A program made the position numbers and the translations under genes. A stretch of 64,000 nucleotides of DNA, taken from the NCBI GenBank assembly GCA_018402525.1, contig JAGYIR010000011.1:434001-498000 (forward strand). Reading direction: 5' to 3'. The stretch comes from Crocinitomicaceae bacterium. Lineage in GTDB: Bacteria > Bacteroidota > Bacteroidia > Flavobacteriales_D > Crocinitomicaceae. Positions 51,595 to 53,670 of the stretch are shown here, piece by piece. Below the pieces are notes generated by a model. That model ran no database searches. It worked only from the letters and a program-made list of their open reading frames with translations, and had not been told where the DNA came from. Within the stretch, counting starts at the first letter, position 1; each line of letters opens with the position of its first letter.

Positions 51595-51706
51595 AATCGA
51601 TTCTCACGTTTGAAATCAATTAGAAGCTAAGTTTTTTCATTCCGATTGTCACTTTTTTTGATTTCACCACACTTACTAGTTAAGGAGTGGCAATTTACAC
51701 ACAAGT

Positions 51707-52225
51707 ATGAAATCGAAACAAGACGTTTTTCTAGAACTCTACGAACCAATTCATGATAGGTTCGAACGCTTCTGCAGGGCAAGGGTTTATGGAACGATGG
51801 AACATTCCGATTTAATGAATGACACGCTATTGATTGCTTTTGAAAAAATGGAAACATTGCAGTCAAAAGAGGCATTTCTTTCATTCTTGTTTGGAATTTG
51901 TGTGCGTGTTTTAAGTAATCACAACCAGAAAACGAGAGAAGAACGGTTTTCAAACGATGACAATTCATCGGTAGTAGATCAATCGCAAAATACTGACTTG
52001 GATACAGATATTCACTATTTGTATAAATCATTGAGTCAATTGAGCGATGACCAACGTGAAAGTATCATTCTCTTCGAAATTTCTGGATTCAGTATCAAGG
52101 AAATTGCAACCATTCAAAATGCAAGTGAAGATGCTGTAAAACAACGTTTAAAACGCGGTCGTGAAAAGTTAACAAGAATAATGACATTTGAGTCAGTACG
52201 TAAAACGGGAGGTGAAAATGAATAA
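51707..52225 (+). CDS. RNA polymerase sigma factor, ECF-like
   Basis: This 172-residue protein has sigma region 2 (about 10-70: LYEPIHDRFERFCRARVYG, HSDLMNDTLLIAFEKM) and region 4 (about 110-160: LSQLSDDQRESIILFEISG, IKEIATIQNASEDAVKQRLK). Regions 1 and 3 are absent, so it is an ECF-type factor. It lies 8 bases into the next gene, which encodes a membrane-anchored SUMF1-fold protein rather than a standard anti-sigma factor. I see no matching ECF promoter in front of it. Confidence 0.85.
   Translation: MKSKQDVFLELYEPIHDRFERFCRARVYGTMEHSDLMNDTLLIAFEKMETLQSKEAFLSFLFGICVRVLSNHNQKTREERFSNDDNSSVVDQSQNTDLDTDIHYLYKSLSQLSDDQRESIILFEISGFSIKEIATIQNASEDAVKQRLKRGREKLTRIMTFESVRKTGGENE
52207..52214 (+). 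promoter_or_regulatory. Unusual strong Shine-Dalgarno site
   Basis: GGGAGGTG with core GGAGG (52208-52212) lies 5 bases before the ATG at 52218. Bacteroidota genes usually lack such sites. It supports this start and suggests independent ribosome entry inside the end of the sigma gene. Confidence 0.6.
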
Positions 52226-53579
52226 GCAAACACACATCGATCAGCTTTTTCAAAAAGCAAAAACACAACCTGTTGCCATCTCCTTTGAGACAACGAAAAA
52301 TGAATTTTTAAAGCGACTTCCAACGAATTCAGGAAAACCCAATTCAACTGGAAACAGTGCTTTATTTAACTTAAAAAATTTGACGATTATGTTCGCAACA
52401 GTAGGTATTATCAGCAGTATGATTTTTCTATTTTATTCACCCAACGAATTGGCAACGTCGTTGGAGAAAAATCAGCCAAAAAAAGTAAAGCAAGAAGTCG
52501 AAACTATGAATTCCAGAGAGGAAATTCAATTTGTAATTAAAGAGGAGGAAGTTCCAAAATCGACCAAATTTGTGTGGCCAGTGATGGAAACAAAATCAAT
52601 AGAGAAAATTCACTCATTTCGACCAAAGGAGATTTTTTTCCCAATCGTTCTAAAAAAAGCAGACAACCACGAGAAAAAACTGGCTTCAACCGAATACAAG
52701 TACTATCCTAAATTAACGCCAGAAGAAATCGCCAACAACCATAAGCAAAAAAAGAAGATGGTGAAAGCACTTTCCAAGTATGACAAGAAATTCTATTCAT
52801 ACATTCCGGCAGGCAGTTTTGATTACAAAGGGACGTTAATCTCCACTCAAGCATTTTTTATGCAAGTCAATGAAGTCACAAATTTGGAGTACCGCACGTT
52901 TTTGTTTGACCTCTTAATTCAAGGTAAAAAAACGGAATTCGATTTGGCCAAGCCGGCGCAAGAAAATTGGACATTACTTTTCGGTGACGACATGCAACCC
53001 ATGCAGGACCAATACTTCTCACATGAAGCATTCAATGAGTATCCAGTATGCAATGTTTCGAGAGCAGGAGCGGAGTTGTACTGTAAATGGTTGACAGAAT
53101 CAGTTAATGCGAGCTCAAACAACGAGATTAAGATTAATGATGTGCGCATTCCTACACGTGTTGAATGGTACAAAGCGGCTAGCATCGAAGGAAAACAGTT
53201 GCCATTTCCATGGGGAACAGCGTCCTTAAAAAACGAAAGCAACTGTTACCTTGCCAATTTCGATGCTAAAACGACTAAAACTGAAGCAACGCAGCTTGAT
53301 ACAATTTCTGGAGATGGCGCGTTAATCACAGCGAAAACTGGAACGTACAATCCAAACGACTATGGACTATACAACCTTAGTGGCAATGTTGCCGAAATGG
53401 TATACAATGAACAGAATGTAGATGGTAAGATGATTTGGGTTGGATTTGGTACCGCTGGTGGAAGCTGGTTGAACTCTGAAGCCGAGCTAAAAATTAACGG
53501 CCCAGATCCTTACAATGGCGTGGTAGAAGGTCACCCTGGAATTGGATTTAGAGTAGTGATTACACATCTTAAAAAGTAA
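52218..53579 (+). CDS. Membrane-anchored SUMF1/FGE-fold protein, possible anti-sigma partner
   Basis: This 453-residue protein has a cytoplasmic N-terminus (1-52), one transmembrane helix (about 54-73), a charged periplasmic linker (75-185) and a C-terminal formylglycine-generating-enzyme-type domain (about 190-453). Domain motifs are MQVNEVTNLEYRTFL, YPVCNVSRAGAELYCKWL, RIPTRVEWYKAAS, YGLYNLSGNVAEMVYN, GGSW and GIGFRVV. The segment after GGSW has no Cys, so formylglycine synthesis is unlikely, as in GldJ/GldK. Coupling to an ECF sigma gene suggests the short N-terminal part controls the sigma factor (inference). Confidence 0.78.
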   Translation: MNKQTHIDQLFQKAKTQPVAISFETTKNEFLKRLPTNSGKPNSTGNSALFNLKNLTIMFATVGIISSMIFLFYSPNELATSLEKNQPKKVKQEVETMNSREEIQFVIKEEEVPKSTKFVWPVMETKSIEKIHSFRPKEIFFPIVLKKADNHEKKLASTEYKYYPKLTPEEIANNHKQKKKMVKALSKYDKKFYSYIPAGSFDYKGTLISTQAFFMQVNEVTNLEYRTFLFDLLIQGKKTEFDLAKPAQENWTLLFGDDMQPMQDQYFSHEAFNEYPVCNVSRAGAELYCKWLTESVNASSNNEIKINDVRIPTRVEWYKAASIEGKQLPFPWGTASLKNESNCYLANFDAKTTKTEATQLDTISGDGALITAKTGTYNPNDYGLYNLSGNVAEMVYNEQNVDGKMIWVGFGTAGGSWLNSEAELKINGPDPYNGVVEGHPGIGFRVVITHLKK

Positions 53580-53589
53580 GCATTCGAGT

Positions 53590-53627
53590 GAGGTGTGTTC
53601 AAGTCAACGTAACACACCTCTATTTCT
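53590..53627 (+). terminator. Hairpin after the sigma/SUMF1 operon
   Basis: A perfect 10-bp stem GAGGTGTGTT / AACACACCTC with an 11-base loop lies 11 bases after the stop. Only a weak T-rich tract (TATTTCT) follows. Confidence 0.65.
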
Positions 53628-53640
53628 AAAAAAATCGGAC

Positions 53641-53670
53641 TTTGAACTGAGTAAATTTGTGCTACTTTTG
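53641..53670 (+). promoter_or_regulatory. Promoter of the acyltransferase gene
   Basis: TTTG (53641-53644), 18 bases, then TACTTTTG (53663-53670), a full consensus match. The ATG at 53689 is 19 bases downstream, which rules out longer in-frame starts from 53593. Confidence 0.65.

Follow-up and report, generated by a model that had tools for sequence, protein, structure and literature searches.

The window analysed here is a stretch of 64,000 nucleotides from contig JAGYIR010000011.1 of a Crocinitomicaceae bacterium. On its forward strand a gene for an ECF sigma factor overlaps a second gene, which encodes a single-pass membrane protein with a SUMF1-fold domain. The locus contains the following features:

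51647..51676, + strand: predicted ECF promoter for autoregulation, TGTCAC-N18-ACTTAC, some 30 nt 5' of the sigma ATG
51707..52225, + strand: ECF sigma factor gene, 172 aa
52207..52214, + strand: Shine-Dalgarno-like GGGAGGTG for the overlapping gene
52218..53579, + strand: gene for a single-pass anti-sigma candidate with a periplasmic SUMF1 (PorK-like) module, 453 aa
52218..52358, + strand: predicted two-helix cytoplasmic anti-sigma tail, residues 1-47
52359..52433, + strand: transmembrane helix, residues 48-72
52434..52706, + strand: disordered tether, residues 73-163
52707..53576, + strand: SUMF1-fold module (PorK-like) without the FGE cysteines, residues 164-453
53590..53620, + strand: hairpin with a 10-nt inverted repeat, just past the stop

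The first open reading frame (ORF) matched Sigma70_r4_2 of Pfam at 50.5 bits (cut-off 25.7) and the sigma70-ECF model TIGR02937 at 54.9 bits (cut-off 42.9), while its match to Sigma70_r2, at 21.5 bits, lay below the cut-off of 24. It has a clear region 4, a region 2 match and no large region 3, which is the make-up of an ECF factor. Against NF058625, the NCBIfam model of GFO_1088-type ECF factors, it scored 54.2 bits, with a cut-off of 130. The ATG of the second gene (52218) lies inside the end of the sigma gene (52225), giving the 8-nt overlap ATGAATAA that the first-pass annotation had described. The same annotation had called the ribosome-binding site of this gene unusually strong, which holds as one case of a family trend: GGAG, GAGG or AGGA stood 5' of 36 of 100 anti-sigma starts in the family. 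The corresponding figures were 3 of 100 for sigma starts, 4 of 46 for long ORFs in the window and about 10% for random stretches taken within sigma genes. Among members with a SUMF1 module, a Shine-Dalgarno-like sequence preceded 19 of 40 anti-sigma starts.

A structure model of the 453-aa protein was built from 46 sequences and had a mean pLDDT of 79.6. It comprises a tail of about 47 residues with a conserved F11 and helices at 5-16 and 23-33, a transmembrane helix at 48-72 (the top Kyte-Doolittle window is at residues 55-73), a mostly disordered stretch at 76-157 and a folded part from about 187 to 453 that is confident up to the C-terminus. The FGE-sulfatase (SUMF1) domain of Pfam covers residues 210-447 with 84.4 bits. 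The layout first read from the letters, a 52-residue tail followed by one helix and a periplasmic domain, was correct to within a few residues.

Over most of the tether the pLDDT is below 50, and its length is conserved while its sequence is not. It measured 86-105 residues in 46 of 46 sequences (standard deviation 4.7, coefficient of variation 0.05) at a mean pairwise identity of 12%. The coefficients of variation of other variable stretches were 0.069 (the tail), 0.088, 0.225 and 0.433, and two of these, both short, had smaller absolute standard deviations than the tether, 1.9 and 4.0. Because its length range is narrow despite the 12% identity, we read the tether as a length constraint, one that possibly spans the distance to the outer membrane. 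The 46 rows omit 35 of the 80 loci from named genomes introduced below, namely 19 long proteins, 5 broken ones, 5 short ones and 6 others (L171, L182, L190, L197, L199 and L205). By a cruder measure, in which the second motif match was used for L203, the tethers of the 19 long proteins span 89-105 residues, and those of the 46 rows themselves 80-105. All of these tether figures concern SUMF1 members; for members with a DUF2807 module the motif finder was unreliable and missed 11 of 29. Some anti-sigma-type proteins reach about 700-800 aa: two SUMF1 stretches are confirmed in L175, and L180, L186, L187, L200, L216 and others are grouped with it on length and score.

Conservation of the pair and of its promoter

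The first-pass annotation had suggested a search for conserved sigma-SUMF1 pairs, and such pairs were found for 15 of 15 full-length proteins in the host genus and at 70 of 80 loci in named genomes. The former come from 60 searched genomes, the window's own among them; the 15 with a full-length protein all belong to one genus, in which the distribution of the pair is patchy (15 of 34 genomes, several of them incomplete). In every case, the window's included, the sigma gene lies directly upstream on the same strand, and in the 14 relatives its product is 55-77% identical to that of the window. With start codons picked by us, 11 of the 15 pairs overlap by 4 or 8 nt and 4 are separated by gaps of 1-5 nt. 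Since this order and this overlap or near-abutment recur in all 15, the arrangement is more than chance.

From the scan of named genomes, 80 of 117 relatives were retained. Here 56 loci carry the same sigma class directly upstream and 14 carry a divergent sigma-like protein; in three tested representatives of the latter, region 4 scored 16.8-22.9 bits and region 2, detected in two of the three, 16.9 and 23.8 bits, all below the Pfam cut-offs. A contig end cuts five loci (L190, L195, L211, L218 and L223), and five (L227, L228, L235, L236 and L237) encode short SUMF1 proteins whose N-termini look signal-like; upstream of these stands no sigma gene of this kind, although at L237 an ordinary ECF gene adjoins on the opposite strand. 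Named hosts of the pair include Brumimicrobium mesophilum and Fluviicola chungangensis. The pair is also carried by a record titled Glaciecola amylolytica, of the Pseudomonadota (L173), which clusters with Fluviicola in the SUMF1 tree and is probably misnamed. A further pair with the divergent sigma class occurs in another family (L023, G045, positions 1-760), where the end of a divergent sigma-like gene is followed by a tail and SUMF1 protein. Short SUMF1 proteins of about 300 aa (L024-L036, L227, L228, L235-L237; 426 aa for L034) are common in the host genus, and the neighbouring DNA examined held no homologue of the window's sigma factor.

The predicted promoter is conserved along with the genes. 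TGTMAC-N18-ACTWAC lies upstream of 12 of the 15 sigma genes of the genus (L010, L018 and L022 deviate). Among 123 distinct family upstream regions, chosen for a sigma score of at least 150 bits and at least 120 bases of sequence, 77 contain TGTMAC-N18-ACWWAC; many others are near-misses by eye. The same two boxes at spacings of 14-17 and 19-22, reversed, or on the other strand occurred in 0 of the 123. Because this motif precedes 77 of 123 family sigma genes, it suggests autoregulation. In the 3.16-Mb host genome, the extended motif TGTMACTTTT-N14-ACTTAC has a single site without mismatch, the pair's own promoter. The short motif has three sites, two besides the pair's own, compared with 10 for the reversed pattern, and the longer one has 12 sites at up to 2 mismatches, compared with 29 reversed. 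As the two other exact matches are fewer than the 10 of the reversed pattern, the promoter scan of the host genome found no wider regulon. Eight of the 13 other sites were inspected: L260, L266 and L267 lie inside ORFs, two stand before genes, and L258, L261 and L263 fall in neither class by a rough check. The two before genes are of the TGTAACTTTT type and carry a TCTTA box: L264 (G000:C6:294335) lies 19 nt ahead of a further ECF sigma gene, and L262 (G000:C15:22938) precedes a gene whose product looks outer-membrane-bound by eye. Sites of this type are likely the promoter of a different ECF factor. A similar -35 box there precedes an ECF gene whose -10 box differs, so this box is not confined to the family.

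Downstream, the stretch 53582-53645 folds at -16.7 kcal/mol (z -2.56), and the hairpin within it is a possible end of the two-gene transcript, while a consensus scanner called no terminator after the SUMF1 gene. Across 77 loci, no third gene is shared on the same strand by more than 5 (by up to 13 on the opposite strand), so the unit looks like a two-gene switch.

A tail common to many periplasmic modules

A profile of the tail (A2, 26 rows) matched in at least 68 of 299 genomes of the same order and in at least 5 of 394 genomes from across the phylum, three of the latter being weak matches outside the order. The tail is common to at least 102 distinct proteins, and 100 of the 102 are encoded directly downstream of a related sigma gene, at spacings of -14 to +12 nt. 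We do not count the other two against this link, because one is fused to its sigma factor and one (L146) has no DNA upstream in its record. The fusion (L142; G273:C87, 543-2831, - strand) joins the sigma factor (N-terminal; Sigma70_r4_2 at 38.7 bits, above the cut-off), the tail and the periplasmic module in one ORF of 763 aa; it comes from one genome, and a sequencing frameshift could explain it. The profile was built from 26 of the 102 proteins, and 2 others came to notice through a neighbouring sigma gene, which leaves about 74 that the profile alone detected.

Behind most paralogues of the sigma gene in the genus and the order stands a protein that shares the tail but differs in its periplasmic part (L058 and L059 were broken off in this survey). 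The periplasmic parts of the 102 proteins form clusters of 40 (SUMF1), 29, 14, 6, 4, 2 and 2, plus five singles; in the clusters of 29 and 6, 29 of the 35 members match DUF2807 and 7 match DUF4097. On a quick tree of the sigma factors, module type changes 12 times, compared with 51.4 times in shuffles. The periplasmic modules are interchangeable, while the tail and the sigma factor persist. Sequence comparison also indicates that one SUMF1 module serves two sigma systems, because the modules of both pair classes fall in one clade (see below) while their tails have no detectable homology (hhalign probability 7.6%).

One family member (L091, protein 265-1740, - strand) carries a CHU_C type IX secretion signal domain at 52.6 bits. 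We rejected CHU_C as a theme of the family: the Pfam match comes from the only member of that cluster scanned, and a motif check gave 1 of 14.

Kinship of the SUMF1 module and what it may read

The best structural matches of the module were PorK chains (Z 23.5-29.2 in four entries, superposed over 257-258 residues at an rmsd of 2.3-2.4), compared with Z 22.4 for the best FGE structure; Foldseek TM-scores of the whole model were modest, at about 0.4. Profile comparison gave the same order, with E-values of 1e-51 for PorK and 3e-13 for FGE. The best NCBIfam model was that of GldK, at 138.6 bits against a cut-off of 350, while the true GldK of the host genome reached 551.6 bits on this model. In a quick tree of 60 SUMF1 domains, modules linked to a sigma gene fell in one clade (branch value 95) whichever their pair class, with the short secreted proteins beside it, separate from the clades of GldK (99) and GldJ (100). 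The tree held 9 GldK and 7 GldJ rows, of which 4 and 3 were checked against their own models and all passed the cut-offs. On the score and the separate clade we reject the module as a GldK. PHROGs returned one weak match over the SUMF1 part, to a 'kinase' family at 48.1 bits. The first-pass annotation had stated that SUMF1 domains of this phylum are otherwise known from GldJ and GldK; the module is indeed nearest to PorK/GldK, yet it stands in a clade of its own, and this group has a family of short secreted SUMF1 proteins as well.

In 46 of 46 relatives, the column aligned with FGE C336 holds S, N or D, and the fifth column after it, a position extrapolated past the end of the alignment, holds I, L or V. 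We take these two columns to be those of the FGE catalytic cysteine pair, and the earlier description of an FGE-type domain that lacks a catalytic Cys agrees with them. Planctomycetes may have ECF groups with FGE-type partners.

Because its outer part resembles a component of a protein-secretion ring, the pair may read the state of the envelope, the role that the first-pass annotation had assigned to the SUMF1 domain. What the module would bind can be read in more than one way. It may be a generic, C-type-lectin-like binder of a glycan, a peptide or an envelope lipid, unlinked to secretion, which we find plausible, with doubt slightly prevailing. The fold also matches Treponema denticola variable protein 1 (Z 21.2) and the phage Major Tropism Determinant (Z 11), both of which bind ligands and are non-enzymatic; the sister modules DUF2807 and DUF4097 suggest assorted cues; and the closest relatives in sequence are the short secreted SUMF1 proteins, not GldK. 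That PorK is the closest solved structure speaks against such a general role.

That structural kinship points instead to the type IX secretion and gliding machinery. The module would dock on PorN/GldN or another part of the ring at the outer membrane by way of its fixed-length tether, and the sigma factor would be released when free partner is lost or in excess. We consider this unlikely, though deserving of attention. PorK chains of the PorKN ring are the nearest solved structures, the PorK profile far outscores that of FGE, GldK is the best NCBIfam model, and a tether held at 86-105 residues despite its low identity would span about 34 nm if stretched. ECF control of type IX secretion genes exists in Porphyromonas, through PorXY-SigP (excerpts of PMC7712824), and has been suggested in Flavobacterium psychrophilum (excerpts of PMC9723704). 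However, the GldK score lies far below its cut-off, the module is in a clade apart from GldK and GldJ, no promoter site with up to 2 mismatches was found on the gldK contig or within 38 kb of gldJ in the host genome, and other family members bear modules without a known link to type IX secretion. The Porphyromonas gingivalis system resembles such a circuit in that an ECF factor is tied to the state of the secretion system (excerpts of PMC7712824); it differs in that the response regulator PorX binds SigP and activates it, where the circuit proposed here would free the sigma factor from a SUMF1-bearing anti-sigma factor. Going further, the module could be a PorK-related 'decoy ring subunit' that reports assembly or load of the type IX ring to the sigma factor from its fixed-length tether, and belong to an undescribed Flavobacteriales family of class II-like anti-sigma factors with an interchangeable periplasmic sensor. 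We hold this combined proposal to be improbable.

Predicted contact between tail and sigma factor and the proposed switch

In the class II anti-sigma factor CnrY, a cytoplasmic part of fewer than 50 residues forms two helices, of which helix 1 binds region 4 and helix 2 region 2 of the sigma factor (excerpts of PMC7406223). The short cytoplasmic domain with two helices is also present in our model. We computed direct-coupling scores for 124 sigma-tail pairs (Neff 83) in four helix-by-region blocks, with 100 within-cluster shuffles, and tested the topology after a first look at the data. Pairs joining helix 1 to region 4 or helix 2 to region 2 made up 8 of the 10, 16 of the 20, 21 of the 30, 39 of the 50 and 66 of the 100 strongest block pairs, counts that were reached by 2, 1, 3, 0 and 0 of the 100 shuffles, respectively; the set is small and the margin thin at the smaller cuts. 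When transmembrane columns were included, 9 of 10, 14 of 20, 22 of 30 and 36 of 50 pairs were concordant, but the largest score of all (2.55) fell on a transmembrane column and shuffles reached a maximum of 15 or 16 of 20, so part of the coupling signal is phylogenetic. Covariation thus favours binding of the tail in a class II, CnrY-like topology, as support and not as proof. The likeness to CnrY/CnrH, drawn by description, lies in the short two-helix cytoplasmic part and in the predicted assignment of helices to regions (excerpts of PMC7406223); the difference is the large folded periplasmic module that follows the tail here.

By analogy, the closest known systems appear to be the Dma/Das systems of Bacteroides thetaiotaomicron, with dual membrane-spanning anti-sigma factors (Dma) and ECF21 partners. 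Both kinds of system have an adjacent ECF sigma gene, an N-terminal sigma-binding part (predicted here), one transmembrane helix, a long disordered tether and a C-terminal folded domain, and Dma3 bears its own sigma factor as an N-terminal domain, as the 763-aa fusion does here (excerpts of PMC13088901). They are likened by described layout and not by sequence, and the C-terminal domain is an outer-membrane barrel in Dma and a SUMF1 fold here. Three other ECF sigma genes in the window's own genome (L245, L246 and L248) are followed by genes for long proteins that combine a short tail with a transmembrane-like stretch, possibly in a Dma-like layout. The sign of the tail's effect rests on analogy, and the tail could instead activate or merely localise the sigma factor without inhibiting it; this seems quite doubtful, since the ECF partners of similar layout, Dma1 and Dma2, inhibit, and the effects of their deletion need the sigma factor (excerpts of PMC13088901). 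Weakest is the notion of an enzyme operon, with a sulfatase-maturing (FGE-like) or EgtB-like enzyme behind the sigma gene by chance: the 84.4-bit Pfam match is in its favour, but the FGE cysteines are missing in 46 of 46 relatives, the module is paired with two divergent sigma classes and the same tail occurs on unrelated modules, which makes it extremely improbable.

Within the open-access full texts searched, we found no paper linking SUMF1 to ECF sigma factors, and none on anti-sigma factors with DUF2807 in Bacteroidetes or with toastrack. Searches there for anti-sigma together with FGE-sulfatase or formylglycine-generating terms gave matches unrelated by title, and the match for GldK with anti-sigma concerns loss of flagella.

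Altogether, the computation supports the architecture, the conserved pairing, the swapping of modules, the conservation of the promoter and a PorK-like fold without the FGE cysteines. The reading as an anti-sigma/sensor fusion, put forward in the first-pass annotation, gains support from the conserved pairing, from the tail common to 102 proteins and from covariation in the class II topology, and we consider it very probable that the two genes form a self-contained ECF sigma/anti-sigma switch. For sigma binding, inhibition, the signal, the mechanism of release and any wider regulon, we infer the following course. The product of the overlapping gene would use its short cytoplasmic tail to keep the sigma factor inactive at the inner membrane, helix 1 of the tail contacting region 4 and helix 2 contacting region 2. 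The transmembrane helix and a flexible tether of about 91-94 residues would carry the non-catalytic SUMF1 domain, of PorK/GldK type, into the periplasm, where it would read a ligand or a partner. Loss or gain of that partner, or proteolysis near the membrane, would then release the sigma factor, which would transcribe at least its own two-gene unit from TGTMAC-N18-ACWWAC, while the overlap and the re-initiation-type ribosome-binding site would keep the two products matched.

The conserved promoter ahead of the sigma gene offers a simple reporter test of such a switch, and the tail family is a ready set of natural domain swaps. Modules of unassigned purpose (SUMF1, DUF2807, DUF4097 and others) gain a likely role as sensors, and if the SUMF1 module reads the type IX ring, the pair would give these bacteria a direct route for sensing the state of their secretion.
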